Virus record (IMG/VR): IMGVR_UViG_3300033153_006942 | Location: 1-22,131 of that record | From: a virus | Strand: one strand, 5' to 3' | DNA length: 22,131 bases | The notes under the pieces: generated by a model | Database searches by the model: none | The model's input: only the letters and a program-made list of their open reading frames with translations | Told to the model about the DNA's origin: nothing | In this document: positions 1 to 22,131 of the stretch, in pieces | Numbering within the stretch: position 1 is the first letter of the stretch | How the letters are laid out: each line of letters opens with the position of its first letter | Program-made: the position numbers and the translations under genes

Positions 1-6
1 GGGAAT

Positions 7-183
7 ATGAAGATAAAGAGATATAAGTTAAATAGTGGAAATTCTATATATATGGCTAAGAAGAAGATAAAAAAGAATCCTAAAGTTGTGATTAATATTC
101 CTGGTTTAAATTGGATGCCTTCTGTTACTAAGAAGGATTATAAGAGTTATTTAAAGAAGATTAATAAGGGAAGAAAGAGATAA
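7..183 (+). CDS. Small basic protein upstream of terL
   Basis: A 58-codon reading frame ends one base before the terL start codon. It is very rich in Lys/Arg and ends KKINKGRKR, with a short hydrophobic/aromatic centre (NIPGLNWMPSV). The frame is open to the left window edge, so the true start may lie outside; an internal ATG at 52 (MAKKK...) is an alternative. I do not recognise the family. The position directly before terL is where small terminase subunits or small nucleic-acid-binding proteins are often found, but nothing in the sequence proves that role. Like terL, it uses many AAG lysine codons. Confidence 0.5.
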   Translation: MKIKRYKLNSGNSIYMAKKKIKKNPKVVINIPGLNWMPSVTKKDYKSYLKKINKGRKR

Positions 184-184
184 T

Positions 185-1492
185 ATGGCCTATAATGATT
201 TAATTAAAGAAGATGTAAAGAAGGTTTCTATATTCAAGCCTCGTAAGTTTCAGCAGTATATTATTGAGGAGTTGAAGCGTTTCAATGTTTTAGTATGTCA
301 TCGTAGGTTTGGTAAGACTTATTTAGCTGTAGCGTTGTTAGTCAGGGCTGCTTTAGAGACTAAGGATACGATGTTTTATGGAGCGTACCTTGCGCCAACG
401 CGTGTACAGGCTAAAGAAGTAGCGTGGTCTATGTTAAAGGATATAGCGCGTAAGATTGATAATACTGTAATTTTAGAATCTGAGTTAAAGGTAAAGTTTG
501 GTAATGGAGCTGTGATAAAATTGCTTGGTGCGTCTGAGCCTGATAGTCTTAGAGGTTTGGGATTAAATTATGTTATTTTAGATGAAGTAGCGCAGATGAA
601 GTCAGAGGTATGGATTGAGATCATCAGACCTGCCATTTCTGATAAGATTGGGACTGTGGTGTTTATTGGAACTCCAAAGGGTGCCAATTTCTTTCAAGAG
701 ATATATGAGTATGCTAGGAATACGGATGATTGGTTTCATGCCAAGTTCAAGAGTTCTGAGACTGATGTGGTTCCAATGCAAGAGTTAGCGAATGCCAAGA
801 GTATGATGACGGATGAAGCTTTTGAACAAGAGTATGAAGTAAGTTTTTATGTATCAAATGCTGCGTCTTATTATGGGAAGATAATCAACAAGATAGATAA
901 GGATAAGAAAATTACATCAGTGCCTCATGATCCGAATAAGAAGGTGTATACGGCGTGGGATATTGGTTTCACGGATGCCACTGCGATTTGGTTTTATCAA
1001 AAGACTGGGTTGAGTGAAGTTCGTATAATAGATTACTATGAGAATGAGGGAGAAGGTTTGCCTCATTATATCAAGTATATCAATCAACTACCTTATATAT
1101 ACGGAGTGCATTATGCGCCGTTTGACATAAAGAAGCATGAGTTTGGGAGTGGAAAGAGTATAATCTCTCAGGCGAAGGATTTAGGTGTCAGGTTTAAGCC
1201 TGTAACGAGGAAGATTAATAGGCAAGATGGGATTGAGCAGGTACGGATGTTTTTACCAAAGTGTGTTTTTGATCGTGAGAAGTGTGAAGTTGGTTTAAAG
1301 TGTTTGAAGCATTATCAAAAGAAGTGGAATGATAAGATGAGTGTTTATTTAAATGAGCCTCAGCATGATTGGAGTTCACATGCTGCTGATGCTTTTAGGT
1401 ATTTAGCGTTGAGTTATAAAGAACAAGATATATTGCATAAGAAGTCTGGAAATTATTTAAAAGATAGTGGTAGAAAGCAATGGTACAAGTAA
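185..1492 (+). CDS. terL: Terminase large subunit (DNA packaging ATPase/nuclease)
   Basis: This is the motor that pumps DNA through the portal into the prohead and cuts the concatemer. The ATPase domain shows a Walker A (CHRRFGKT, residues 38-45), a Walker B with catalytic Glu (YVILDE, 129-134) and a coupling motif (IGTPKG, 161-166). The C-terminal RNase H-like nuclease shows the first catalytic Asp in WDIGFTD (D259), an acidic segment YAPFD downstream, and a final SSHAADAFRY (D402). Its 435 residues are normal for a compact podovirus TerL, and no intein or break is seen. Its last 13 bases overlap the next gene. Codon use differs from downstream genes: 17 of the first 20 lysines are AAG, whereas late genes use almost only AAA. 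Confidence 0.97.
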   Translation: MAYNDLIKEDVKKVSIFKPRKFQQYIIEELKRFNVLVCHRRFGKTYLAVALLVRAALETKDTMFYGAYLAPTRVQAKEVAWSMLKDIARKIDNTVILESELKVKFGNGAVIKLLGASEPDSLRGLGLNYVILDEVAQMKSEVWIEIIRPAISDKIGTVVFIGTPKGANFFQEIYEYARNTDDWFHAKFKSSETDVVPMQELANAKSMMTDEAFEQEYEVSFYVSNAASYYGKIINKIDKDKKITSVPHDPNKKVYTAWDIGFTDATAIWFYQKTGLSEVRIIDYYENEGEGLPHYIKYINQLPYIYGVHYAPFDIKKHEFGSGKSIISQAKDLGVRFKPVTRKINRQDGIEQVRMFLPKCVFDREKCEVGLKCLKHYQKKWNDKMSVYLNEPQHDWSSHAADAFRYLALSYKEQDILHKKSGNYLKDSGRKQWYK

Positions 1493-1938
1493 AAAAACTA
1501 AAAACTGCAATGCAGTTACAAGAGTTTACCAATTTAATGCGAATCAATGATAAGAATGTTTATGATTGTAGTAAAGAGAAGTATATAGATTGGGTTGTAT
1601 TCAAGTTATTTTCTCCAAATAAGCGTCATATTGTATGGATATTGTATGCTGGTGAAAAACCTGTAGGTTATATTCATGTACGGTATGATAATGGATTAAA
1701 TCATGAATTAATAGTATTAAGTGCTTTCATATTGCCAGAATTTCAAGGTAAGAGATTATTGATAGATTTATTAAAGCCAGTAGCAGAGTTAGGAATAAAG
1801 TTAAATGTAAATAGGATTAAGTGGTATAGTCCAGAGGTTCCAAAAGAAGTTTGGGATAGAAACATATTTGGTAATAAAATGAAAGAAACCAGAGTATATA
1901 GTGTTGAAAAAAATATTAAGCCGTATCAGGAGAAATAG
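1480..1938 (+). CDS. GNAT-fold acetyltransferase-like protein
   Basis: This 152-residue protein overlaps the end of terL. It has the GNAT pattern: an N-terminal helical part, beta strands around WILYAGEKPVGYIHVRY (residues 53-69), then the acetyl-CoA loop region FILPEFQGKRLLIDLL (83-98), where EFQGKRL matches the usual Q-x-x-G-x-G/A-like turn in a relaxed form. A substrate cannot be predicted. T7 gp13, which helps assemble the internal virion proteins, is thought to have a GNAT-like fold, so this may be a structural relative rather than an enzyme; that is inference. The start at 1480 is preceded by a weak purine stretch; a second ATG at 1510 is possible. Confidence 0.6.
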   Translation: MVQVKKLKTAMQLQEFTNLMRINDKNVYDCSKEKYIDWVVFKLFSPNKRHIVWILYAGEKPVGYIHVRYDNGLNHELIVLSAFILPEFQGKRLLIDLLKPVAELGIKLNVNRIKWYSPEVPKEVWDRNIFGNKMKETRVYSVEKNIKPYQEK

Positions 1939-1942
1939 GTAA

Positions 1943-2920
1943 ATGAAAATTTATACAAAAGTAGTTTGGAATATAGAGAGTGGAGAAGAAATATTATCAG
2001 AGTCGTTTGAATACTCAGGTCCTTTAGCTTTATGTGATGGTGATGGTGGAGGTGATGGTAATTTTGATGGTAATGAAAGTTCATCTTATGAAGGCGAAGG
2101 TAGTTTTAATTCTACAGGAATTGGTGGCACTAATAATCAATCAACGGGTGGCGGCGGCGGTGGCGGCGGCGGCGGTGGCGGCGGTGGCGGTAAAGGTTTG
2201 AGTGATGCTGGTATGGAAGGTGCTCTTGGTGATCCTAAAGGTGGTGACCCTGACCCAGGTGCTGATCCTGGAGGTGGTAGTGGTAATTCAGATGGAGTAG
2301 GAAATATTGATTTAGGTTCACCATCATTAACTGATATTTCAAAAGCAAAAACTGCAGCAGATTTACAAACAACTGGATTTAGTGCAGAATTGGGACCTGA
2401 TTTGGGTAATGTATCTGAAAAAGATATTAAATCAGCGTGGGCAGCAACAGATAAAACATTAGCTGATAAATATGGATATGAACCAACTAAAATGGGGCTT
2501 GATTATAATTTTAATAAGAAAAAAGCTGGGAATGTTTTCTTAAGTGCTTTAGCTGTTACAAAAGATCCTTTCCTTGCAGCATTAGCCACTGCAATATCCC
2601 CTATTTCATATAATAATTTACCTGGTTTTGAAAGTAGACAAGCAGCCAGAGGAATAGGTGGAGACCCTGAAGGTGGAAATGCTGATGGAAAAGACATTGT
2701 AAAGAAAAAAACACCAGCCACTACCATCACTGAACCAGTAATTAAAGAAGAAGAAGAAGAAGAAGTGAGTCCAGCTGATTTTATAAAATCATTAGGTCAA
2801 GCTAAAAACAGAGCCACAAGGCGTGCTAAATCACGAATGCGAAGACAGTTTGGTTTCTTAGATACAAGATTGAGTGGTGATTTAACAAATCCAATAATTT
2901 ATACACCAACATTGAGGTAA
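1943..2920 (+). CDS. Gly-rich low-complexity protein, probably virion-associated
   Basis: I do not recognise a named family. The first 40 residues look folded (KIYTKVVWNIESGEE). Residues about 34-125 are extremely Gly/Asp/Ser-rich and include 15 consecutive Gly (69-83). A more ordinary region follows, with KKKAGNVFLSALAVTKDP and a mildly hydrophobic segment near 200-220. Then comes a run of six Glu (269-274) and a basic C-terminus (NRATRRAKSRMRRQFGFLD). Basic R-rich tails ending in a short GF/L-x-D segment are common in small structural or ejection proteins of marine podoviruses, so a virion role is plausible. It lies between the GNAT gene and the portal; the portal ATG follows its stop by three bases. 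Confidence 0.7.
   Translation: MKIYTKVVWNIESGEEILSESFEYSGPLALCDGDGGGDGNFDGNESSSYEGEGSFNSTGIGGTNNQSTGGGGGGGGGGGGGGGKGLSDAGMEGALGDPKGGDPDPGADPGGGSGNSDGVGNIDLGSPSLTDISKAKTAADLQTTGFSAELGPDLGNVSEKDIKSAWAATDKTLADKYGYEPTKMGLDYNFNKKKAGNVFLSALAVTKDPFLAALATAISPISYNNLPGFESRQAARGIGGDPEGGNADGKDIVKKKTPATTITEPVIKEEEEEEVSPADFIKSLGQAKNRATRRAKSRMRRQFGFLDTRLSGDLTNPIIYTPTLR
2147..2191 (+). repeat. GGC/GGT trinucleotide tract encoding 15 Gly
   Basis: Fifteen consecutive GGC or GGT codons lie in frame. The tract is entirely G/C apart from the T third positions and sits in otherwise AT-rich DNA. Length changes in units of three would keep the frame. Confidence 0.95.
2747..2764 (+). repeat. GAA trinucleotide tract encoding six Glu
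   Basis: Six consecutive GAA codons fall in the same gene as the poly-Gly tract (residues 269-274), just before its basic C-terminal tail. Confidence 0.9.
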
Positions 2921-2923
2921 AAT

Positions 2924-4585
2924 ATGGAAGTAACAAAATTAATGCAAAAATTTGAAGATGTGCAGAAGAATAGAAGCACTTGGGAAGAAACCTGGGATGA
3001 AGTGATCCATTATTGTAACCCTTCACGAGAAGGTATTTATGATGGTGATTTGCCTGGTGATATTAAGAATGCTGATGTGCCTGATGATACGGCCGCGATT
3101 TCTAGTGATAGACTTGCTGCTATGATCAATTCAACTATTACAAATCAAGCGACAGATTGGTTTGATATATCAATAAATGATGAAGAGTTGAAAGAAAAAG
3201 CTAGTGTAAAACAATGGTTAAATGATTTAAATAAGCAAGTTAAGAGAGCGTTTGATGAGTCTAATTTTTATTCATCTGTAAATGAGATGTATTTGGATTT
3301 AACTACAGTTGGTACAGGTGTAATGTTTATTGGTAGTTCAGATGAGTTAGATAAAGATTTAACTTTTTCTACTAGACATATAAAAGAGATTTACATTGCT
3401 GAAAGCCACGAAGGTAAAGTAGATACATTGTTTAGAAAGTTCAAATGGACAGCAAGACAAATTGTACAGAAATGGGGAATTGAAAATGTAAGTGATCATG
3501 TTAAAGAAGAATATAATGAAGGCAATGAAGAAAAAGATTTTGATATATTGCATTGTGTTTTCCCAAGAGAAGATTGGGTATTTGATGAAGATAATTTAGA
3601 TGCGAAGAAGATGAAGTTTGCTTCTCATTGGCTTGAGTTAGATGAAGAAACAGAGTTAGCGGAAAGTGGATATGAAGAATTTCCATATGTGGTTCCACGA
3701 TGGATAAAGAATACGACTGAAAAATATGGTCGCTCACCAAGTATTACCCTCCTACCAAGTATAAAATCAGTAAATAGAATGAAGGAAACATTATTAAGAA
3801 CAGGTGAAAAAGTTGCTGACCCACCAATAAATATTCCAGATGAAAATGAAGATGTGGATATGAATCCTGGTGGAAAGAATTATTATGACCCACAAACAGA
3901 AGGTTGGATTAGACCTATTGATTTAGGTGCTAATTTACCTGTAAATCTTGAAATGTTAAATACAGAGCAAGATCATATTCGTGATGGTTATTTAATGAAT
4001 CAGCTTCAAGTAATCAATAAGACTGAAATGACAGCTCTTGAAGTTAGAACAAGAATGACAGAAAATATGAGAGTTCTTGGACCAACATTTGGTAGACTAA
4101 TGACTGAATTTATGGATGTTTTATTAAATAGAGTTATAAGTATATTACAAAGAAGCACAGATAGATTTGGTTTGCCTCGTATTCCAGAAGCACCAAAAGA
4201 GATTGAAGGTAAAGAATTTTTATTAATTTACACATCTCCTTTGGCTAGAGCACAAAAGCAAAGCTATTTACAATCTACTATGATAATTGTTAATACAGCA
4301 ATTGAGTGGTCAAGGTCAACTGAAAGACCTGAAATACTTGATAATGTTGATTTTGATGAAGCTATTAAATTTGTAGCTGATGCTTCAGGTGATCCTGTTG
4401 GAGTAATGAGAACAAAAGATCAAGTTCAAGAGATAAGAGTAAGAAGAGCAGAATTACAGAAAGCACAACAAGAAATGCAAATGCAGCAAATGCAAATAGA
4501 ACAACAACAAGCACAAATGGGTATGGTTGAACAAGGAGCAAATGCTACTGAAAAGGTAGCAAAGGCGGAATCGTATGCAGGATAA
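2924..4585 (+). CDS. Portal protein (T7 gp8-type head-tail connector)
   Basis: The portal forms the dodecameric ring at the capsid vertex that binds terminase during packaging and the tail afterwards. The N-terminus (FEDVQKNRSTWEETWDEV, then HYCNPSREG) is the typical opening of the T7 gp8/head-tail connector family, and 553 residues is close to the 536 of T7 gp8. The C-terminus is a Gln/Met-rich helical tail (QQEMQMQQMQIEQQQAQM, about 495-520), expected for the barrel/crown region. A GAGG at 2914-2917, inside the end of the preceding gene, serves as ribosome binding site. The gene is intact. Confidence 0.93.
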   Translation: MEVTKLMQKFEDVQKNRSTWEETWDEVIHYCNPSREGIYDGDLPGDIKNADVPDDTAAISSDRLAAMINSTITNQATDWFDISINDEELKEKASVKQWLNDLNKQVKRAFDESNFYSSVNEMYLDLTTVGTGVMFIGSSDELDKDLTFSTRHIKEIYIAESHEGKVDTLFRKFKWTARQIVQKWGIENVSDHVKEEYNEGNEEKDFDILHCVFPREDWVFDEDNLDAKKMKFASHWLELDEETELAESGYEEFPYVVPRWIKNTTEKYGRSPSITLLPSIKSVNRMKETLLRTGEKVADPPINIPDENEDVDMNPGGKNYYDPQTEGWIRPIDLGANLPVNLEMLNTEQDHIRDGYLMNQLQVINKTEMTALEVRTRMTENMRVLGPTFGRLMTEFMDVLLNRVISILQRSTDRFGLPRIPEAPKEIEGKEFLLIYTSPLARAQKQSYLQSTMIIVNTAIEWSRSTERPEILDNVDFDEAIKFVADASGDPVGVMRTKDQVQEIRVRRAELQKAQQEMQMQQMQIEQQQAQMGMVEQGANATEKVAKAESYAG

Positions 4586-4588
4586 AAA

Positions 4589-4957
4589 ATGAACTGGGGA
4601 AAAACTCAAAAAATAATAGCAAGTATAGTTGGATTAATTACAATTTTTGCAGCAGGATTTGTAGTTTATAATCATTTTGCAAAACAATCAGCACATGCTG
4701 CTCTTGCTGCCAATGTTGAAACAAATTATGTTCAACAATCAGAATTGGTTGCTATGAATAAAAATGTTCAACAAACAAATTATGATTTTTGGATTTATAG
4801 AATTAAACAAGAAATAAGTGATTTATATAAAGAACTACGAAAAACTGTTGATAAAATTAAACAACAACAAATTCAAGATGAAATAGAAATGAAAAAAGAC
4901 GAATTGAAAAATTATAATAAGAAATTGGATGGATTAAAAGAAGGAATAAATGAATAA
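4589..4957 (+). CDS. Small membrane protein with coiled coil (spanin- or holin-like topology)
   Basis: This 122-residue protein has one N-terminal membrane segment (IIASIVGLITIFAAGFVVY, about residues 9-27) and a long charged, Lys/Glu/Gln-rich helical region (about 65-118) that should form a coiled coil. That topology is seen in inner-membrane spanins (Rz-like) and in some small virion membrane proteins. No lysozyme or outer spanin is next to it, so a lysis role is only a suggestion. It starts three bases after the portal stop and its end overlaps the next gene by 8 bases. Confidence 0.7.
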   Translation: MNWGKTQKIIASIVGLITIFAAGFVVYNHFAKQSAHAALAANVETNYVQQSELVAMNKNVQQTNYDFWIYRIKQEISDLYKELRKTVDKIKQQQIQDEIEMKKDELKNYNKKLDGLKEGINE

Positions 4958-5150
4958 TAAATTAAAAGAATTAAAAGAACAGTATAAAGTTTTATTTTCA
5001 GGTGAAGCTGGGATGAAAGTAATGATAGATTTAGAAAAAATAGCATGGTATAATAAATCCATGCGAACAATGAAAATGTCAAATGAAGATTTGGCTTTTA
5101 GAGAGGGAAAACGTAGTTTATTATTGTATATTAAAGATAGAATAAATTAA
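4950..5150 (+). CDS. Bbp19-like small phage protein
   Basis: This 66-residue protein follows the pattern of Bbp19-like small phage proteins (named after Bordetella phage BPP-1): FSGEAGMKVMIDLEKIAW (residues 16-33), then a short linker and FREGKRSLLLYIKDRI (50-65). The G-x-x-V-x-x-D-L core and the late EGKR/EGRR plus I-x-x-x-I ending are the family features I rely on. Such genes usually sit between portal and scaffold, as here. Their function is unknown to me. It overlaps the preceding gene. Confidence 0.6.
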   Translation: MNNKLKELKEQYKVLFSGEAGMKVMIDLEKIAWYNKSMRTMKMSNEDLAFREGKRSLLLYIKDRIN

Positions 5151-5226
5151 AAAGAGAACCTTTGGTCTCGTAGGGTAGCTTGAAATATAGTCCAGAGATT
5201 AGTAGAGGTAACTAAAGGAGGCAATT
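5151..5226 (+). promoter_or_regulatory. Scaffold leader with hairpins and strong ribosome binding site
   Basis: This 76-base gap is one of only two sizeable leaders in the window. A bulged hairpin (GAGAACC 5154-5160, loop TTT, GGTCTC 5164-5169) is followed at once by GTAGGGTAGC. A second small hairpin (TTAGT 5199-5203 with ACTAA 5211-5215) touches the strong Shine-Dalgarno AAAGGAGG (5214-5221) of the scaffold gene. No bacterial -35/-10 pair is convincing. Confidence 0.5.
5170..5179 (+). promoter_or_regulatory. Shared leader motif, copy 1
   Basis: GTAGGGTAGC occurs here in the scaffold leader and again, identical, at the start of the MCP leader. A weaker copy, GTAGGGGAGC, is at about 6710. 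The TAGGG-AG core recalls the initiating end of T7-type promoters (TATAGGGAGA), but the upstream bases do not match. Confidence 0.35.
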
Positions 5227-6111
5227 ATGCCAGAAGAAGGAACAACAGAAGAAGGAACAGAAGAAGGGTTAGATACTGGAGTAACAGAAGAAGGAAAATC
5301 TGATGAACCAAAAGTTTTTACAATAGATCAATGGAGAGAATCAATTCCAGAAGATTTAGCTAGTGAAGCGTCATTAGCAGATATTAAAGATGTTGAAGGA
5401 TTGGTAAAAGGTTATGTAAGTGCACAAAAATCATTTGGTAAAGATAAGACATTTTTACCAAGGAAAGAATGGACGAGTGAAGAATGGGAAACTTATCATA
5501 AAGCAACAGGAAGACCTGATACAGATGTAGAGTATAAGTTAAATAATCCTGAGAATGCTCCAGAAAATTGGCCATCTAATATTAATTATGAGAATGACTT
5601 TAGAAAAAAGGCCCATAAGTTAGGATTGACAAAAAGACAAGGTAGAAAAGTATGGGATTTTTTACAAACTAAAGCGTTAGATAATTATACTGGACAATCA
5701 GAAAATAGTTCAACAAGATTAAAAGAAGGCCATGAAGAAATTAGAAAAGAGTATGGTGCTAAGTATGATGAAGTTTCTAAAAAATCAAACAATATGATAA
5801 TGAAGTTAGATAAAGATGGTTCCATTAGAAAGTGGTTAAAGGATTCAGGTGCTGGACAAGAGCCAATGTTACATAAGTTAGCAATGAAGTTGGCTGAAGG
5901 TTTAGGTGAAGATAAAATTACTGATACAAAACCAGGTGGAGCATCTAAATTAACACCAAGAGAAGCTTTAGCAAAAATTTCAAAATTGGAAGAAGATATG
6001 TATAAACAAGGTGATAGTCATCCATTGATTGATAAATTTCATCCAGACCATGATAAAGCAAATACAGAAAGAACAAAATTATATGAACATGCGTATCCAG
6101 AAGGAACATAA
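5227..6111 (+). CDS. Scaffolding (capsid assembly) protein
   Basis: A 294-residue hydrophilic protein lies between portal and capsid genes, the standard place for scaffold. It begins with a Glu/Gly/Thr-rich disordered stretch (1-30). A conserved region typical of marine podovirus scaffolds follows: a WRESIPEDL segment, then DVEGLVKGYVSAQKSFGKDK (about 57-76), then a pattern of Trp/Glu ending in a GRPD-x-x-x-x-YKL element (about 96-107). The C-terminus contains HPLIDKFHPDHDKA and a KLYEHAYPE ending, a short basic/aromatic helix of the kind that binds coat protein. The start is set by AAAGGAGG at 5214-5221. The next gene starts immediately after the stop codon. Confidence 0.85.
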   Translation: MPEEGTTEEGTEEGLDTGVTEEGKSDEPKVFTIDQWRESIPEDLASEASLADIKDVEGLVKGYVSAQKSFGKDKTFLPRKEWTSEEWETYHKATGRPDTDVEYKLNNPENAPENWPSNINYENDFRKKAHKLGLTKRQGRKVWDFLQTKALDNYTGQSENSSTRLKEGHEEIRKEYGAKYDEVSKKSNNMIMKLDKDGSIRKWLKDSGAGQEPMLHKLAMKLAEGLGEDKITDTKPGGASKLTPREALAKISKLEEDMYKQGDSHPLIDKFHPDHDKANTERTKLYEHAYPEGT

Positions 6112-6654
6112 ATGGAAACATTAGGATTTACAGAAAAGTTACAATTTGAAATTGACAAGAATACAAGACTTATTTTTGGTGTTAGTGAAAAAGGAATAGG
6201 AAAAGGAGTAGCGAAATATATTTTCACATTAACAATTGAAGATATTGAGTATTCTTTTCCAGCTATTTTTGACATAAATGAAGTAATAGTTGAAGTTCCT
6301 GCTCTTAATAGTATTATACCACAAGGTATAGTAGGAACATTTATGGCTAAATTAGAAGTAATTGTAGATGATAGGATATATCTAAAGCCGTGGGAAGAAC
6401 CATTTGAGATATATACTAATCCTAAGATAGATGCCACCTTAGAAGTTGTGCCACCAGGAAAGAAAGTATATTTAAAAGAAGGCCCAAAAGGCGATCAGGG
6501 TGATCCTGGTAAAGAACAATCTAAAGAAGAACTTATTTCCATCATAAAATCTGTGATAGATGATGAAATAGATGAAGCTTCAGGTGGTGACAAGAAGAAG
6601 TTTAAAAAAATAAAATTATTAAGAATTTTAGAAGATATTAAAGATAGAATGTAG
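6112..6654 (+). CDS. Structural protein with short collagen-like segment (function unknown)
   Basis: This 180-residue protein begins with no gap after the scaffold stop. Residues 1-115 look like a beta-rich domain (FTLTIEDIEYSFPAIF; AKLEVIVDDRIYLKPW). Residues 124-133 are collagen-type triplets (GPKGDQGDPG). A charged helical tail of about 45 residues ends with KKKFKKIKLLRILEDIKDRM. Phages use collagen-like triplets in fibres and capsid decorations, so a trimeric head fibre/decoration or an assembly helper is possible. I do not recognise the domain. The stop codon TAG lies inside the GTAGGGTAGC motif. Confidence 0.75.
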   Translation: METLGFTEKLQFEIDKNTRLIFGVSEKGIGKGVAKYIFTLTIEDIEYSFPAIFDINEVIVEVPALNSIIPQGIVGTFMAKLEVIVDDRIYLKPWEEPFEIYTNPKIDATLEVVPPGKKVYLKEGPKGDQGDPGKEQSKEELISIIKSVIDDEIDEASGGDKKKFKKIKLLRILEDIKDRM

Positions 6655-6660
6655 GGTAGC
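6651..6660 (+). promoter_or_regulatory. Shared leader motif, copy 2
   Basis: Exact second copy of GTAGGGTAGC, overlapping the stop codon of the preceding gene and opening the MCP leader. Confidence 0.35.
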
Positions 6661-6818
6661 GTGTAAACGTCTTACATAAATCTTAAAAAAGGTCCTATAT
6701 TAAAAGGGTGTAGGGGAGCCATATAACCCGCAAAACACAAGAGTTGAATTGGTCTTCGTAAGAAGGTAGCCGCGTTCAATAATTGAACACTAAAATAAAA
6801 TATAGGAGAATTAAAATA
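6655..6818 (+). promoter_or_regulatory. Structured 5' leader of the major capsid gene
   Basis: This is the longest non-coding stretch in the window. It is richer in G/C patches than the flanking genes. Visible hairpins: TGTAA-ACGTC-TTACA (6662-6676); GTCTTC-GTAA-GAAGGT (6752-6767, GNRA-type loop, two G-T pairs); and GTTCAA-TAA-TTGAAC (6774-6788, perfect). TTCAA at 6775-6779 could instead pair with TTGAA near 6744, giving competing folds. A variant of the shared motif, GTAGGGGAGC, lies at about 6710, and GGTCTTCGTA...GGTAGC at 6751-6770 resembles GGTCTCGTAGGGTAGC in the scaffold leader. The MCP start has its own AGGAGA (6804-6809). Confidence 0.6.
6693..6807 (+). promoter_or_regulatory. Possible ribosome-binding-site sequestering pair (anti-SD)
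   Basis: TCCTATATT (6693-6701) is a perfect 9-base reverse complement of AATATAGGA (6799-6807), which contains most of the MCP Shine-Dalgarno. Pairing would close a loop of about 97 bases over the two GTAA/TAA hairpins and hide the start region. It may be a translational switch or chance. Confidence 0.4.
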
Positions 6819-7391
6819 ATGAGTACACAAATAACAACTGCATTTGTAAATCAATTCCATCGTGGTTTTGAGTTACTTTTGCAACAAGAAGGTAGTAAGT
6901 TACGTCCTTACGTGGATGTAAGAAAACAAGTAGGGGAATATGGGTATTATGATTTTATTGGTGCTGTTTCAGCGCAATCATTGACTGAAAGACATGCTTC
7001 AACTACTTTCATTAATACACCACATAGTAGACGTAGAGTTGGATTAGCTACTAAATTCCTTGCAGACTTAATTGACGAAAAGGATAAGGTTAAAATGCTT
7101 GGAGACCCAAAGAATGATTATGCAATGAACTTTGCACATGCTATGGGGAGAGCAATTGATCAAGCTATTATAGATGCTGCTTTTGGTTCAGCTTATGCTG
7201 GAAAAGCAGGTGGAACTACAGTTACTTATGCTTCAAGTGGTACTACAATTACTGAAGCTGGTTCAGCAGGATTAACAGTTGCGAAAATTAGAGAAGCTTC
7301 AACAAAGCTTAATTTGAACAACGTTCCAAATAGTGAAAGATACTTTATTGTAACTGCGAATCAAATTGATGATTTGTTAGGAATCAACTAG
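6819..7391 (+). CDS. Major capsid protein, N-terminal part (frame broken)
   Basis: This codes for the HK97-fold coat protein of marine podovirus type. I chose the ATG at 6819 because TAGGAGA ends about 9 bases upstream; an in-frame TTG lies at 6783. Family features: the opening QITTAFVNQFHRGFELLLQQ, then YDFIGAVSAQSLTERHA, the INTPHSRRRVG segment, DPKNDYAMNFAHAMGRAID, and late NSERYFIVTANQIDDLL, which normally leads into the last third of the protein. Instead the frame stops three codons later at TAG (7389-7391), giving 190 residues. The C-terminal part continues in another frame from 7373. Relatives are roughly 300-340 residues, so a piece seems to be missing. Confidence 0.85.
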   Translation: MSTQITTAFVNQFHRGFELLLQQEGSKLRPYVDVRKQVGEYGYYDFIGAVSAQSLTERHASTTFINTPHSRRRVGLATKFLADLIDEKDKVKMLGDPKNDYAMNFAHAMGRAIDQAIIDAAFGSAYAGKAGGTTVTYASSGTTITEAGSAGLTVAKIREASTKLNLNNVPNSERYFIVTANQIDDLLGIN

Positions 7392-7606
7392 ATGCTGATA
7401 TTCTTGGTAAAACAAATAATATCAGAGATTGTATTGCTTATAGTAAGAAAGCTTTATTGCTTGCTATTGGACAAGATGCTTTTAGTAGAATTACAGAAGA
7501 ATCTACTAAACATTTCAGTACACAAGTTTATACACAAATGACAATTGGTGCTACAAGAATGGATGAAGACCGTATTGTTAAAGTACAATGTTACGAAACT
7601 CCATAG
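7373..7606 (+). pseudogene. Major capsid protein, C-terminal part (shifted frame)
   Basis: A 77-codon open stretch without its own start (TGA just upstream at 7370-7372) reads FVRNQLDADILGKT, then IAYSKKALLLAIGQD, then STQVYTQMTIGATRMDEDRIV and ends at TAG 7604-7606. These are the usual last segments of the same coat family (the Y-x-K-x-x-L-L-A-x-G and Q-V-Y-x-x-M-x-I-G-A-T-R-M patterns). N- and C-parts together give about 264 residues; by memory of the family, about 45-60 residues between DDLL and FVRNQL are absent. The overlap TTTGTTAG (7373-7380) fits both frames. See findings. Confidence 0.85.
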
Positions 7607-7658: not shown

Positions 7659-8222
7659 ATGGCTTCAAAAGTAGGTATTGCAAATAACGCTTTAACAAAT
7701 CTAGGTGCTGATAGAATCATGTCATTTACTGAAGATTCTGAAAATGCTAGAAATGTTAATAATATATTCGATCAAACATTAGACATGATATTACAGGATC
7801 ATCCCTGGAATTTTGCTAGATATCGTCAAGAATTAGCACAAACTGTTGATACTCCAGTATTTGATTATGATTATCAATATACATTACCAACAAATCCATA
7901 TTGTTTAAGAGTATTAAGAGCAGAAGATGATAAAAATTTTGTAATAGAAGGTAGAAAATTACTTACTGATGAAACTATAATATCAATAGAATATATTGGT
8001 AGAATTGTTGATATGAATTTATTATCAGCATTGTTTATAGAAGCATTTTCTTATTATCTTTCAATGAAATTAGCATATGCTATTCCTGGTAGTGGAAAAC
8101 AAAGAGAATTTAATGAACAGGATTACATATTAATGTTAAAGAAAGCTAAGTCAAGAGATGCACAAGAAGGCAATAAAGAAATAGTACAAGATAAAGGCAA
8201 TTGGTATAATGCGAGGTTTTAG
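7659..8222 (+). CDS. Tail tubular protein A (T7 gp11-type adaptor)
   Basis: This protein forms the adaptor ring joining portal to tail nozzle. Its 187 residues are close to the 196 of T7 gp11. The sequence begins KVGIANNALTNLGADRI, then has DSENARNVNNIFDQTLDMIL, and then HPWNFARYRQELA (about residues 47-59), which is the family hallmark, followed by YQYTLPTNPYCLRVLR. An AAGGAGA lies 8 bases upstream. The gene is intact and ends four bases before tail tubular protein B. Confidence 0.9.
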   Translation: MASKVGIANNALTNLGADRIMSFTEDSENARNVNNIFDQTLDMILQDHPWNFARYRQELAQTVDTPVFDYDYQYTLPTNPYCLRVLRAEDDKNFVIEGRKLLTDETIISIEYIGRIVDMNLLSALFIEAFSYYLSMKLAYAIPGSGKQREFNEQDYILMLKKAKSRDAQEGNKEIVQDKGNWYNARF

Positions 8223-8226
8223 ATAA

Positions 8227-10278
8227 ATGGCACGTACTACAAGTATAATTAATAATTTTATATCTGGAGAATTATCACCGCGATTAGCTGGAAGAACAGA
8301 TTTAAAAAACTATAATGGTGGTTGTAAAACCATTGAAAACATGTTTATTTTTCAACATGGTGGAATTTCAAAAAGACCTGGAACTAGGTTTATTGCTGCC
8401 GCTGGAGATTCAACAAAAGAAGTTAGACTATTATCTTTTGAATATTCAAGTGAGCAAGCTTATATTTTAGAATTTGGAGAATATTACATTAGATTTTATA
8501 TGAATGGTGGGCAGATACAATATGAAGGATCAGCATATGAAATAGTTTCACCATATGAAGCGCAAGATTTAGCTGAATTGAAATTTGTTCAAAGCGCTGA
8601 TATAATTTATATTACACATCCATTGTATCCAATTTATAAAATTTTAAGATATGGTCATACTAGTTGGAAAATTGAAGAAGTAGAATTTTATGGTGGTCCA
8701 TTTTTAGATGAAAATGATACAATTATTGAAACTGATGCTTCAGATGTTACAGGTGATATTCAAATAAATTCATCTGAAACTGTTTTGAATAATACGTTTG
8801 ATACTAATTTAGATAATTGGATAGACGTATCTGATGATGCTGGTGCTTCAGTATGGGTATCAGGAGGAACATTAAAATTGTCTGGTGATGATAGTACAAA
8901 ATATGGTGCAGTTGAGCAAATTTTAGATACGATTATTGACCAAGAATATACTGTTTCATTAGGGTGTTCTGGAGAAGATGGAACATTATATATATCAACA
9001 GAAACAATATCAGGTGCTCCATCTGGTGCATTTTTATTAACACAAACAATAACAGGTTCTTCAGCATTTTATACAGGAACTTATAATTTTACTGCAACAG
9101 CAGAAACATCCTACTTAAGTATGTCAACAACAGCATCCGCTGGAACTTATATTGATAATATTACAGTCAAAGCAAATATATTTAATGAAGATCAAGTTGG
9201 TGCGTTTTGGAAATTTAGAGGTAATGAAGTAAAAGAATCAACTATAAGTGCTGAAAATACATTTACAGATTCAATTATAATTGAAACATCTGGTGATACT
9301 TTCATTGTATCATTAACAGGAACTTGGGAAGCAACAGTTACTGTGCAAAAATCATTTGATGAAGGAACAACATGGTTAGATGTTTCAAATACTACAATTC
9401 CAGAATCTATTGAAGTAGCATCATATGAAGACAATGTATGGTGGAGAATTGGAGTTAAAACAAGTGATTATACAAGTGGAGATGTTGAAGCAAGATTATC
9501 AAAACTTGATGAATGGGGTTATGCTGAAATAACAGCATTTAATTCTGAAATTGAATTTGATGCTACAGTTATAAAGGATTTACCAAATACTGATGCTACT
9601 GAAAATTGGTCAGAAAGTGCTTGGTCAGATTATAGAGGTTATCCATCATGTATAGCATTTTTTGGACAAAGATTGATATTTGCTGGTTCTATATATCAAC
9701 CACAAACATTATGGGCATCACAAATTGATGATTATGAAAACTTTGAAGCTGGAACAAATGATGATGAAGGTTATATTTATACATTAGCAAGTTCAGATGT
9801 AAACACATTTAATTGGATGGTTGAATCAAAGGTATTATTACTTGGAACAAATTCAGCTGAATGGTCTTTTGGTATTCCAAATGAACCAACAACACCTACA
9901 AATGTATATGCTGAAAAACATACAACATACGGTAGTAAAAATATACAAGGTATTTTGACTGGACCTTTCAATGTTTTCATTCAAAAAGGTGGAACTAAAT
10001 TAAGAAATATGATTTGGAATTATGAGCAAGATAGATATTTAAGTAATGAAGAAAGTCTTCTATCAGAACATTTATTAAAAGAAGGAATAAAAGAAATTGG
10101 ATTTGCTTTTAAACCAAACAGTCAACTTTTTATGCTTTCAGATGATGGAAATTTAGTAGTTTGTACATATGACCCTTTGAATAAAATACAAGCATTTTAT
10201 AAATATGAAACTGATGGAGATTTTGAATCATTTTCAGTAATACCTGGAGATGATAGAGATGAAGTTTCAAACAACTGA
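8227..10278 (+). CDS. Tail tubular protein B (tail nozzle), main part, frame broken near end
   Basis: This is the equivalent of T7 gp12, the nozzle of the short tail. The N-terminus is diagnostic (NNFISGELSPRLAGRTDLKNY, then GGISKRPGTRFIAA, residues about 9-60). Residues about 184-318 form a separate beta-rich module (FDTNLDNW ... YIDNITV) that looks like a carbohydrate-binding, CBM4/9-like jelly roll inserted in the nozzle. The core resumes with AFFGQRLIFAGS and PQTLWASQIDDYENF (about 476-503). The frame ends at TGA 10276 just after IPGDDRDEV, where relatives continue with a W/V-rich R-x-x-NG segment. The missing end continues in another frame from 10250. Confidence 0.88.
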   Translation: MARTTSIINNFISGELSPRLAGRTDLKNYNGGCKTIENMFIFQHGGISKRPGTRFIAAAGDSTKEVRLLSFEYSSEQAYILEFGEYYIRFYMNGGQIQYEGSAYEIVSPYEAQDLAELKFVQSADIIYITHPLYPIYKILRYGHTSWKIEEVEFYGGPFLDENDTIIETDASDVTGDIQINSSETVLNNTFDTNLDNWIDVSDDAGASVWVSGGTLKLSGDDSTKYGAVEQILDTIIDQEYTVSLGCSGEDGTLYISTETISGAPSGAFLLTQTITGSSAFYTGTYNFTATAETSYLSMSTTASAGTYIDNITVKANIFNEDQVGAFWKFRGNEVKESTISAENTFTDSIIIETSGDTFIVSLTGTWEATVTVQKSFDEGTTWLDVSNTTIPESIEVASYEDNVWWRIGVKTSDYTSGDVEARLSKLDEWGYAEITAFNSEIEFDATVIKDLPNTDATENWSESAWSDYRGYPSCIAFFGQRLIFAGSIYQPQTLWASQIDDYENFEAGTNDDEGYIYTLASSDVNTFNWMVESKVLLLGTNSAEWSFGIPNEPTTPTNVYAEKHTTYGSKNIQGILTGPFNVFIQKGGTKLRNMIWNYEQDRYLSNEESLLSEHLLKEGIKEIGFAFKPNSQLFMLSDDGNLVVCTYDPLNKIQAFYKYETDGDFESFSVIPGDDRDEVSNN

Positions 10279-10813
10279 ATGGGACGAACATAAAAATGCT
10301 TATTACGTAGATTCTGGAATAGAATATAATGGTGTTCCAACAAATACAGTTTCTGGAATAGATCATCTTGAAGGTGAAACAATAAAATTATTAGTAGATG
10401 GTGCAACTCATCCAGATGTAACAGTATCAGGTGGAATATTTTCATTACAAGTATCTGGTTCAAAAATTATTGCAGGACTAGGATATAAATCATTAGTTGA
10501 AACAATGGATATTGAAGCAGAAACACAAGCTGGATCTTCACAAGGAAAATCAAAAGCAGCATTTGATGTTACATTTAGACTTCTTGACACAATTGGATTA
10601 AAATTAGGATATGATGAAGACAATCTTGATGTTATTCCATTTAGAGATTCAGCAGATTTAATGGGTAGCGCACCAGAACTGTTTACAGGTGATAAACATA
10701 GAAAATTTAATAAAGGGTGGGATAAATTTTTACATATAGTTGTAGTAAATGATCAACCATTACCATGTACTATATTGGCAATTATACCTACATTACAAGC
10801 AAGCGCACATTAA
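10250..10813 (+). pseudogene. Tail tubular protein B, C-terminal part (shifted frame)
   Basis: This frame reads IEMKFQTTEWDEHKNAYYVDSG, then SGIDHLEGETIKLLVDG, FTGDKHRKFNKGW and ends QPLPCTILAIIPTLQASAH. These match the normal end of the nozzle protein (the YVDSG, GL-x-HLEGE and PLP-x-T-x-LAI-x-P patterns). It overlaps the upstream frame, and the shared bases ATAGAGATGAAGTTT (10253-10267) make sense in both. It has an ATG at 10250 but no Shine-Dalgarno, so it is better read as a fragment than a separate gene. About 20 residues between the two parts appear lost. Confidence 0.8.
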
Positions 10814-17381: not shown

Positions 17382-18491
17382 ATGACAATATCAGTAGACA
17401 CATCAAAACAACAATATAATGGGGATGATTTACAAGTCATTTTCCCATATGAATTTAAAATATTTGATGAATCAGAAATTTATGTTGAATTAAGACAAGA
17501 TGATGGAACAATAGTTAGTCAAGTATTAAATACTGATTTTACTACTTCAAATGCTTCTGGTGTTGGTGGAAATGTTGTTATGATTGTGCCACCAGCAACA
17601 GATGAAACACTTACAGTTTATAGATTAGTTGATTTATTACAAGAAACTGATTATGTTGAGAATGATCCGTTTAAAGCTGAAACACATGAAGATGCGCTTG
17701 ATAAATTAACAATGCAGAATCAACAACAAAATATTACATTAGATAGATCAATAAAAATTCCTATTACTGATAGTTCAACGCTTAATACTGAATTACCTGA
17801 TTGGGAAACACGAGCAGGTAAGTATTTAGGATTTGATGGAAATGGTGGTTTAATTGCTACTGCTGGTACAGAAGCATCTTCACCGTTTACACCATATATT
17901 GAAACATTGATTGATGATGTTGATGCTGAAGAAGCAAGAGGAACATTAGGTTCTGGAACATTTGGAAGTGAATGGTTTACTTATGATACTGCTTCAGAAG
18001 GTATAGCAGCTTTAAATTTAGACTTTATGGAAAATGTTGTTGAAGATACAACACCTCAACTTGGTGGAGATTTAGAATTAAATGGTCATAATATTGATTT
18101 AGGTCCAATACTTACTGTTGATGCAACTTATAAAGGAAAGATAATGACAGTTGTAGTTGATGATGCTTCAGCAGAATTTGGTAAATTATTATATTGTGCG
18201 GCAGATTTTCATTATGAATTATCTGACCCAACAGATGCTTCACCATATAAAATGCCTGTTAGATGTATGGCATTAGAAAGTGGAACAGGTTCAAAAAAAG
18301 TATTATTAGAAGGTCAAGTATGTAAAACTTCTTGGAATTGGAGTGCAGGTGATTTATTCGCTACAACAAGTGGTGATATGACACTAACTACTCCAGCATT
18401 GTCTGGTGATAAAGTTCAAAAAGTTGGATGGACATTAAGTGCTGATACTATTTATTTTAAACCAGATTCAACTACAGTAGAGAAGGCTTAA
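17382..18491 (+). CDS. Tail fibre 1 with T7 gp17-type adaptor domain
   Basis: Residues about 1-130 match the N-terminal tail-attachment domain of T7 gp17: VIFPYEFKIFDESEIYV, then a V-Y-R dipeptide region, QETDYVENDPF, AETHEDALDKL and LDRSIKIP. The second part contains LGFDGNGGL, a TPQLGGDLELNGHNI element common in phage fibres, and a C-terminal domain (about 246-369) with KIMTVVVDDASAEFGKLLY, VLLEGQVC and VQKVGWTLSADTIYFKP, a small receptor-tip-like domain seen in many phage appendages. At 369 residues it is short for a fibre. AGGAG lies at 17365-17369. The adaptor is duplicated in the gene at 20952. Confidence 0.85.
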   Translation: MTISVDTSKQQYNGDDLQVIFPYEFKIFDESEIYVELRQDDGTIVSQVLNTDFTTSNASGVGGNVVMIVPPATDETLTVYRLVDLLQETDYVENDPFKAETHEDALDKLTMQNQQQNITLDRSIKIPITDSSTLNTELPDWETRAGKYLGFDGNGGLIATAGTEASSPFTPYIETLIDDVDAEEARGTLGSGTFGSEWFTYDTASEGIAALNLDFMENVVEDTTPQLGGDLELNGHNIDLGPILTVDATYKGKIMTVVVDDASAEFGKLLYCAADFHYELSDPTDASPYKMPVRCMALESGTGSKKVLLEGQVCKTSWNWSAGDLFATTSGDMTLTTPALSGDKVQKVGWTLSADTIYFKPDSTTVEKA

Positions 18492-18492
18492 T

Positions 18493-20955
18493 ATGGCAAT
18501 AACATATAGATCATCAGCATCTAATGGTAATGGTAGTCCATTTGGCATATCATCTATAACTATCACAAAACCAGCAGGAACAGTTGAAGAAGATTTGATG
18601 ATAGCAAATATTTCAAGTAGATATTATACTACATGGAGTATTGATGAAATTGCTCCTATGGTTACTCCTTCTGGTTGGACTCTATTGGGTTCTGATAACC
18701 AGGGTTATTATGCTGAAGGATATTATTATCATTTTCAAACCTATGTATTTTATAAAATAGCTGGATCATCTGAACCTGCAAATTATACATTTACTTGGAA
18801 TAATAGTGGTATTTGGGATGAAGACCCTGTTGAAGTAGAAGGTGGTATATCAACATTTGATGGTATAGATACTGCTGACCCAATAGGTGATTGGGGTTAT
18901 GATGGTAATGCTCAAGATGCTGGTTATACATCTCACAATGGGCCTTCTATTGCTATGAATAATGGAAATTGGGCGGTTCATGCAGTTGGTTTAACAAAAA
19001 ATTGGGCTGTAACTCCACCAACTGGTACTCCAACATATACAGAAGCATATGATACGGGTTCACAGATTTATACAACTGGTGTTAGAAGTCAATTATCTTA
19101 TGCTGCATATACAGCTGATGGTGCATCTGGTGTTAAAACATCAACTTCTGCTTTAGTAAACTCTTGGATTGTTTTTCATATAGAAATACAACAAGACCCA
19201 TTACCTACATATGTACCACATATTACGCTTTCACCATCTGAATCAATTTCAACTTCAGGTAATAATTATGATACTAATCCAAGTAATGATACTTTTACAG
19301 TAACAAATAGTGCTGGTGCTTCTGCTTCAACATTAAATTGGACAGCAACATCAAATTATAATTGGATTACATTAGTACCTGATAGTGGTAGTGATACACA
19401 AAGTGGTGGTGGTGACCTTGTTACAGTTTCATATGATACACAAGGTTTAAATGAAGATACTTATTATGATACAATTACAGTATCAGATGTAAATGCTTCA
19501 AATACACCACAGACAATTGGTATTACTGTAGATGTATATGAAAGACCAGACCCAGTTATTACATTAACACCTTCTGGTTCAATTTCACCTTCTGGTGATA
19601 ATGTTGGAAATAATCCAAGTAATGACACATTTACCGTGTCAAATAGTGGATTAACAGATTCAACATTAAATTGGACAGCGGTAGCATATGATTCAACTGA
19701 TGGTTACTGGTTAGGATGTGCGGCTGAACCTGTTGTTGGTAATGGTTCATCAGTAGCAGGTTACTCTTATATATATAATGAAGTATGTCCTGTTCCTGGT
19801 AAGATTTCTAAGATTGAAATATATATAAGTAATGATTCAAGTGGTATATTTGATTTTGCTATATTCAATGATAATGGTTCTAATAGTTATACTGACGAAC
19901 ATGTAGCATTAGCGCTTCCTATATCAAACGGATTAAACCAATATTATGATGGTGTAGATTTTAATAAAGATGATTTGCCTATTGAAGTAAATCAATATAT
20001 TGGTGCTTATATTTCATCAAGTGGTATATGGACTAAAATAACAAGTAATGGTCCTGGTTATAGATATGATAATGGCGACCAAATATCTGGAACACCAGCA
20101 GCAAGTAATTTTACTACTAGTCCAAATAGTACACATGAGTTTCAAATTCGTGTTTGGGTAGAATATCCAACAGATGTTGATAGTTTCATTACATTATCAC
20201 CTTCAAGTGGTAGTGAATCAGCAAGCGGAAGTGGTGATTTAGTAACAGTTTCATATGATACGCAAGGTTTAGATAAAGGTTTATTTAATAATATAATTAT
20301 AGTATCAGATTCAAATGCTTTAAATACACCACAAACAATTGATGTTAATTTAACTGTACATGGTTCTGGAAATGAAGACTATATAAGATATAACGCTGGT
20401 ACACAAGAAACAACAAATCACATTTGGACAGATATTGCTAATGCTTGGGATGATGATTTTTATACAAATGCTGAAGGGGATATTTATATATCTGGCGTTA
20501 CAAGAACTCTTGTTGGAACAGTACATGACAATGTAAGAAATAATGGCAATATAACAAAAGTGGAAATTGGATTATATGGTAGTCATCTTAATTCTGATTC
20601 ACCAAATTCTTTTTATGCTAGATTTGATGGTTCAACAGATAGTGCAAGTTATTACTCTGGTGTTACAAATACTAATTGTTATCATTGGTATGATGTAACA
20701 AGTGATGCAAACGGACCTGGAGTTGATGAGTGGACATGGACAGATATTGATAATCTTGATGTTTATTATATTGGTGGTTTTGATGAACCATCTCCTGATG
20801 AACATTATATTACTCAATTTTATATTAGAGTAGCTTATAATTTTGCAGCTGATGAATCAGATAAGATTGAAAAAATAAATAGCGTAATAAATTTTTCAAG
20901 AGTAAATGATGTTTTAATATCAAGTTTAAGTAAAGTAAATGGAGTAACAGTATGA
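18493..20955 (+). CDS. Multi-domain adhesin-like appendage protein with Ig/BACON-like repeats
   Basis: 820 residues between two fibre genes, probably a receptor- or glycan-binding part of the tail. Residues 1-232 form a beta domain seen in phage and surface proteins (ITITKPAGTVEEDLMIANI ... TPSGWTLL ... VFYKIAGSSEP). Residues 244-350 are an Ig/BACON-like repeat (ITLSPSES, NPSNDTFTV, STLNWTA, GDLVTVSYDTQGL, NTPQTIGITV). A second copy begins at 356, is interrupted after STLNWTAV (397) by about 166 residues, and resumes at 564 with SFITLSPSSG to 623. The C-terminus (about 627-800) is another beta domain ending KVNGVTV, a tail seen in structural proteins. No enzyme motif seen. It overlaps the next gene by ATGA. 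Confidence 0.75.
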   Translation: MAITYRSSASNGNGSPFGISSITITKPAGTVEEDLMIANISSRYYTTWSIDEIAPMVTPSGWTLLGSDNQGYYAEGYYYHFQTYVFYKIAGSSEPANYTFTWNNSGIWDEDPVEVEGGISTFDGIDTADPIGDWGYDGNAQDAGYTSHNGPSIAMNNGNWAVHAVGLTKNWAVTPPTGTPTYTEAYDTGSQIYTTGVRSQLSYAAYTADGASGVKTSTSALVNSWIVFHIEIQQDPLPTYVPHITLSPSESISTSGNNYDTNPSNDTFTVTNSAGASASTLNWTATSNYNWITLVPDSGSDTQSGGGDLVTVSYDTQGLNEDTYYDTITVSDVNASNTPQTIGITVDVYERPDPVITLTPSGSISPSGDNVGNNPSNDTFTVSNSGLTDSTLNWTAVAYDSTDGYWLGCAAEPVVGNGSSVAGYSYIYNEVCPVPGKISKIEIYISNDSSGIFDFAIFNDNGSNSYTDEHVALALPISNGLNQYYDGVDFNKDDLPIEVNQYIGAYISSSGIWTKITSNGPGYRYDNGDQISGTPAASNFTTSPNSTHEFQIRVWVEYPTDVDSFITLSPSSGSESASGSGDLVTVSYDTQGLDKGLFNNIIIVSDSNALNTPQTIDVNLTVHGSGNEDYIRYNAGTQETTNHIWTDIANAWDDDFYTNAEGDIYISGVTRTLVGTVHDNVRNNGNITKVEIGLYGSHLNSDSPNSFYARFDGSTDSASYYSGVTNTNCYHWYDVTSDANGPGVDEWTWTDIDNLDVYYIGGFDEPSPDEHYITQFYIRVAYNFAADESDKIEKINSVINFSRVNDVLISSLSKVNGVTV

Positions 20956-21737
20956 CAATAGAAAATAGTGTCAATAGAAACGAACATCTTGGAAATAATG
21001 TTGTATTAAGTTTTCAATATGAATTTAAAATTTTTGATGAATCTGAACTTTATGTTCTGATTAAAGAAACAGATGGGACAATAGTTGAACAGGTACAAAA
21101 TGTTGACTATTCAATTGAAGACAACGGTGATAGTGGTGGAAATGTTGTATTTGTTGTAGCACCAATATTTGGTGATACTGTAATAATTTATAGATTATTA
21201 CAAATACTTCAAGAAACTGATTATGTTGAAAATGATCCATCTTTAGCTGAAACACATGAAGACGTTGCTGATAAATCAATTATAATTGACCAGCAATTAC
21301 AAGATGAATTAGATAGAAGTGTTAAAGGTCCAGTTACTGATCCTGATACATTAAATATGGAACTACCAATTGATACTTTAAGAGCTAATAAAGCTGTAAC
21401 TTTTGATATTAATGGTGCAACAACAGTAAATAATATATTAAGTGAAACAAATTTAACAGATTTAACAGATGGTGGAGATACAACATTACATGACCATGAT
21501 GGAATAGATGAAAATACGGCAGCAAGACATGCTCAATTACATACTGTACCAAGTCATACTGATACAAGTGCAACTGGTGCTGAACTAAATGAACTAACAA
21601 ATGGTAGTGATACTGCTTTACATGATCACTTACATACTGTACCAAGTCATACTGATACAAGTGCAACTGGTGCGGAACTAAATGAACTAACAAATGGTAG
21701 TGATACTGCTTTACATGATCACTTACATACTGCATGA
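20952..21737 (+). CDS. Tail fibre 2 with T7 gp17-type adaptor, frame broken
   Basis: 261 residues to the first stop. Residues 1-140 repeat the gp17-type adaptor of the gene at 17382 (SFQYEFKIFDESELYV, LQETDYVENDPSLAETHEDV, LDRSVKGP). Then follow fibre-shaft repeats: DHDGIDENTAARHA, and a 31-residue unit containing SHTDTSATGAELNELTNGSDTALHDH, present twice and starting a third time. The frame stops at TGA 21735 after LHTA. The downstream sequence continues the same kind of repeat in another frame, so the stop looks like an indel rather than the true end. ATGA overlap with the upstream gene. Confidence 0.85.
   Translation: MTIENSVNRNEHLGNNVVLSFQYEFKIFDESELYVLIKETDGTIVEQVQNVDYSIEDNGDSGGNVVFVVAPIFGDTVIIYRLLQILQETDYVENDPSLAETHEDVADKSIIIDQQLQDELDRSVKGPVTDPDTLNMELPIDTLRANKAVTFDINGATTVNNILSETNLTDLTDGGDTTLHDHDGIDENTAARHAQLHTVPSHTDTSATGAELNELTNGSDTALHDHLHTVPSHTDTSATGAELNELTNGSDTALHDHLHTA
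21537..21722 (+). repeat. Two 93-base tandem repeats in tail fibre 2
   Basis: Copies at 21537-21629 and 21630-21722 differ at one base that I can see (GCT versus GCG before GAACTA). Each codes for 31 residues from LHTVPSHTDT to ALHDH. A third copy begins at 21723 but is cut after eight bases. The near identity indicates a very recent duplication or active exchange. Confidence 0.95.
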
Positions 21738-22131
21738 TGGAATAGATGAAAATAATGCCGCAAGACATGCTCGTTCTCACTCAATAATTTCTAATTCTGA
21801 TCATACTGTTGGTAATAATAAATTAATTTATTCAGATAATTCAGGTGATTTAAAAGAAATAGCTCATGGTCAAAATGAATATGTATTAACAAGTACAGGT
21901 ATAAATTCAATTCCAGAATGGCAGGCATCACAAGCATCTGCTGCTCCAGGACCACATACAATAGTAAGTCATATTGATACTGATGCCACAGGTGCTGAAC
22001 TAGATACTCTTACAGATAATTCAATTGCAAATACACTACACAGACATAGTGAACTTGTTGCAAGTGATGGTGACCCTGACCCAGCTTTTAGTATTAATTC
22101 TGCTGGAGATGCTACATTACATGGTACTAAG
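21733..22131 (+). pseudogene. Tail fibre 2, continuation in shifted frame (runs off window)
   Basis: This frame is open from the break to the window edge (133 codons) with no start of its own. It begins HDGIDENNAARHARSHS, a near copy of HDGIDENTAARHA upstream in the same fibre (40 bases at 21495-21534 and 21733-21772 differ at three positions). It continues with LIYSDNSGDLKEIAHGQNEYVLTS, SHIDTDATGAELDTLTDNS (same theme as the 31-residue repeat) and SINSAGDATLHGTK. It is the rest of the fibre. Dropping the single G at 21732 would join the two frames as LHTHDGIDEN, parallel to LHDHDGIDEN upstream. Confidence 0.8.

Follow-up and report, generated by a model that had tools for sequence, protein, structure and literature searches.

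The window, by which is meant the whole stretch of DNA analysed (22,131 nt; IMGVR_UViG_3300033153_006942), is a contig of an uncultured T7-like phage with a coat protein of the HK97/T7 gp10 kind. The major capsid gene starts at the ATG at 6819 (a mechanical ORF call opens at the TTG at 6783) and lies in two reading frames (Table 1). Frame 1 reaches a stop at 7389-7391, three codons past the conserved DDLL (DDLLGIN-stop). The -1 frame opens at 7373 with FVRNQLDADILGKTNNIRDC and continues to YETP and a stop at 7604-7606. A first-pass annotation, made from the letters of the window, had described a coat frame that stops just after DDLL and a C-terminal part that resumes in another frame from 7373, and this description is confirmed.

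Table 1. Positions of the broken virion genes of the window and of their junctions.
Feature	Position	Strand	Remarks
Major capsid protein, N-terminal two thirds	6819..7391	+	PF19821 E 4.2e-46, PHROG 3437 E 2.6e-42; profile nodes 1-189
Major capsid protein, C-terminal part, -1 frame	7373..7606	+	PF19821 positions 231-293 E 1.5e-12; node 220 on
Junction TTTGTTAGGA, single remaining copy of a putative 8-10 nt direct repeat	7373..7382	+	D-LLG in one frame, FVR in the other
Tail tubular protein B, N-terminal part, ends DRDEVSNN-stop	8227..10278	+	PHROG 376 to profile position 511; relatives
Second junction ATAGAGATGAAGTTT, reads D-R-D-E-V and I-E-M-K-F	10253..10267	+	13-15 nt both ways
Tail tubular protein B, C-terminal part, other frame	10241..10813	+	PHROG 376 from position 527, E 2e-41
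93-nt tandem repeat, then third frame break (~21733), tail-fibre gene	21527..21745	+	Frame resumes as LHDGIDENNAARHARSH

The coat family and the missing segment

Profile comparison places both fragments in a single coat family, as had been proposed: each matches PF19821 (Phage_capsid_2) as well as PHROG 3437, the C-terminal fragment matching the latter at E 4.3e-12. Along the 293 positions of PF19821, the N-terminal fragment covers 1-189 and the C-terminal fragment 231-293; a whole-length match in a single frame is absent, the piece between the fragments being gone and the frame changed. On this profile similarity, the coat gene is a broken member of PF19821 with both fragments homologous to the family. 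The family comprises the coats of HTVC010P-like pelagiphages and their relatives, and the closest annotated relatives are found there, among them the Pelagibacter phages Greip, HTVC100P, and HTVC010P (46-52% identity to the N-terminal part). In all aligned relatives the coat protein is continuous across the site, whereas in the window ~26-30 codons are gone past DLLG, where the frame also shifts.

The size of the loss was obtained from a coat profile of 286 nodes, built from 16 intact relatives. Node 189 is the last one covered by the N-terminal part; alignment of the C-terminal part begins with its residue 9 at node 220. Counted from the overlap, the loss amounts to 79-91 nt, a range that depends on the alignment of FVR and that has the form 3n+1, as the frame change requires. 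The 45-60 residues suggested earlier were therefore too many.

The relatives' sequence at the lost stretch resembles TTEVTSSDFNTVKALANGEVNSFLGF in the alignment. This stretch is among the best conserved of the family, with invariant D195, L202, G205, G212, and F213. In the model of an intact relative (L013) it comprises a loop, a helix (193-203), and the residues leading into a strand (213-217); confidence there is pLDDT 77-86, in an overall model that is poor (mean 62). The same model has an HK97 fold and matches the phage capsids 9jwb, 9eg4, and 8i4l, and the coat profile matches T7 gp10A (2xvr, E 7.6e-7). A coat protein without the lost segment would not be expected to assemble.

Short overlaps at the junctions and further breaks

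At the coat junction, TTTGTTAG(GA) can be read in two frames, one giving the left flank (DDLLG) and the other the right flank (FVR). This overlap can be lengthened to 9-10 nt, with TTTGTTAGG(A) fitting both readings. Reckoned over all possible 30-150-nt deletions in the window, the chance of such an overlap is 1.1e-4 for at least 8 nt and 1.4e-5 for at least 10 nt; because so few arbitrary deletions show it, the direct-repeat signature at the coat join is not a matter of chance. The first-pass annotation had taken the break for a deletion between short direct repeats. Its overlap signature held up, 8-10 nt being read both ways, but the segment was smaller than supposed, and the second copy of the repeat is one that the protein reading implies. 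The direct joining of DLLG to FVR, which would have spoken against a deletion, occurs in no coat relative among those aligned. An RNA element or a group I intron was rejected for the break: neither the window nor its sister contig (see below) has an Rfam match up to E 1.

The coat gene is one of three virion genes in this 22-kb contig with frame-breaking losses, the others being those for tail tubular protein B and a tail fibre; most other long frames of the window are intact. Tail tubular protein B (8227-10813) has ~15 residues (~59 nt) fewer than its relatives, one of which (L033) has DELWMIVKRTIDGTTRRYIE at this place. The chance of an overlap of at least 13 nt, as found there, is about 2e-6 among arbitrary deletions. 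In the tail-fibre gene, the break falls directly after the tandem repeat, where LHDHLHTA-stop closes one frame and the continuation lies in another.

Two protein scans and an exact 24-mer scan of viral contigs, together with a scan of a genome collection, gave no near-identical contig that spans the coat break. The sole close contig, IMGVR_UViG_3300033388_004081 (7,916 nt; L003 and L028 in the coordinates below), matches window positions 1-6653 at 98.7% and 6602-7071 at 97.9%; it ends 5' of the coat break and cannot show the undeleted state. This sister contig has lesions of its own. In its terminase gene 37 nt are missing (window 425-461) and the frame is lost, with no direct repeat at the deletion. 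It has 2 nt extra at window position 2577, and the next large gene is out of frame. Its coat gene gives way near codon 83, right at the end of the contig, to 84 nt identical to an endonuclease copy in the contig's interior. At each of these three places the window has no lesion.

Origin of the coat break

The preferred explanation, with a probability of roughly 0.7, is that the coat break is a false join produced in assembly or in DNA amplification or library preparation, and not a property of a living phage. Two ends flanking ~79-91 nt would have been joined through the 8-10 nt overlap, with loss of the intervening stretch and of the frame; the same event would account for tail tubular protein B (~59 nt, overlap of 13-15 nt) and probably for the repeat-rich tail fibre. 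The join was presumably made in silico or in vitro. One candidate is a gap-closing step of an assembler, in which contig tips connected by read pairs would be joined on overlaps of ~10 nt; a literature search on short-overlap gap closing or amplification chimeras returned nothing specific. Two of the contig's breaks have overlaps expected in ~1e-4 or fewer of arbitrary deletions. An artefact is favoured because two more virion genes are broken here and because a contig that is ~99% identical has private breaks elsewhere, at sites where the window is intact. False joins and amplification chimeras in metagenomes likewise give several frame-breaking losses per contig that are private to each near-identical contig; here they are seen in the contig sequences. 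Private lesions that break the frames of essential virion genes in two contigs, while other genes stay intact, are better accounted for by false joins or chimeras than by inheritance. Against an artefact, real replication slippage just as typically leaves microhomology of 8-15 nt, a length too short for joining by De Bruijn assembly alone. Because the 37-nt deletion of the sister contig has no direct repeat, one mechanism does not explain all of the lesions.

A genuine deletion is a credible but doubtful alternative. By replication slippage or microhomology joining it would have left a defective phage, carried by helpers in a mixed infection or left to decay within the chromosome of a host. 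The short direct-repeat signature at two breaks and the lesion sizes of 37-91 nt, typical of slippage, are in its favour. Deletions of this origin likewise retain one copy of 8-10 nt (or 13-15 nt) with the middle gone; in the present case, however, no intact parent was found to supply the second copy. What weighs against it is the number of independent lesions in essential genes of one genome in which most other long frames are intact, and their being private between two contigs that are ~99% identical. Moreover, no close coat relative was found as a prophage in 84,980 prokaryote species (one genome per species; close relatives only). Of the two possibilities first offered, an artefact or a deletion variant borne by helpers, the former is thus favoured by the several breaks and the private lesions of the sister contig, and the latter less so. 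That the lesions as a whole are real, and that the sampled population includes packaged defective genomes which intact helpers sustain and in which deletions of 37-91 nt recur in essential virion genes, mostly at short repeats, we consider improbable. Two further proposals fare much worse. It is highly improbable that the break is a repair scar, left after the coat gene was cut by an endonuclease VII-type enzyme whose gene the sister contig carries beside, and apparently also joined into, its own coat gene. In the sister, an Endonuclease_7 gene (PF02945, E 1.2e-20) does directly precede the coat gene, and part of a second copy is joined to the coat near codon 83. That junction, however, itself lies at a contig end and ~100 codons away from the deletion, and the comparable break in tail tubular protein B is not close to any endonuclease. 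Direct causation by the endonuclease was rejected, the window carrying no copy. Least probable of all is a working coat, in which programmed -1 frameshifting joins the frames, or two polypeptides are made, in a lineage that has dispensed with the segment. Similarity to the family persists in both fragments as far as the junction, yet the lost segment, with its conserved helix and strand approach, is present in every aligned relative; the coat genes of these relatives stay in a single frame throughout, and a break of this kind recurs in tail tubular protein B. On inspection, TTTGTTAG does not have the X-XXY-YYZ form of a canonical slippery heptamer. Programmed frameshifting was rejected on the frame structure, which no aligned relative shares, the conservation of the missing residues, and the absence of a slippery site.

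With a false join as the preferred reading, this contig should not serve as evidence of a split or shortened coat protein or of a capsid-less phage. Frame-breaking losses that affect several essential genes of a contig and carry short overlaps readable both ways are a simple warning sign, in collections of viral metagenomes, that ends have been falsely joined. If real, the lesions would mean that a natural population of phages carries unusually many defective genomes.

Other features of the two contigs

Relative to the window, the sister contig has its Endonuclease_7-type gene as an insertion at the point where the gene preceding the coat comes to its 3' end (L003:2238-2833 versus window 6602-6654). 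The 3' end of this upstream gene is new in the sister: five codons in a row (R-I-L-E-D) differ by synonymous changes. The endonuclease frame ends in LEDIKDRM-stop, which resembles the displaced old 3' end of the upstream gene. From these sequences the endonuclease looks like a mobile gene that restores a recoded end to the gene it displaces. Related endonuclease pieces are found at both ends of the sister contig and inside it (L028:1-253, 7100-7366, and 7833-7916), and these repeats probably limit its assembly. Differences between L028 and the window fall into short tracts (window 1711-1776, 2992-2998, 4792-4797, and 5694-5700) separated by long runs of identity, as if short alleles had been exchanged or the consensus were patchy.

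Among coat relatives, IMGVR_UViG_3300006802_004489 has an in-frame stop in the coat gene (L027:1784-1786), after which the same frame continues. Two tail-fibre genes of the window (17382-17765 and 20952-21335) have similar N-terminal domains of ~125 residues that match the same PHROGs (1640 and 13893). Directly 3' of the terminase gene, the window carries a GNAT-type acetyltransferase gene at 1480-1938 (PF00583, E 0.0004).
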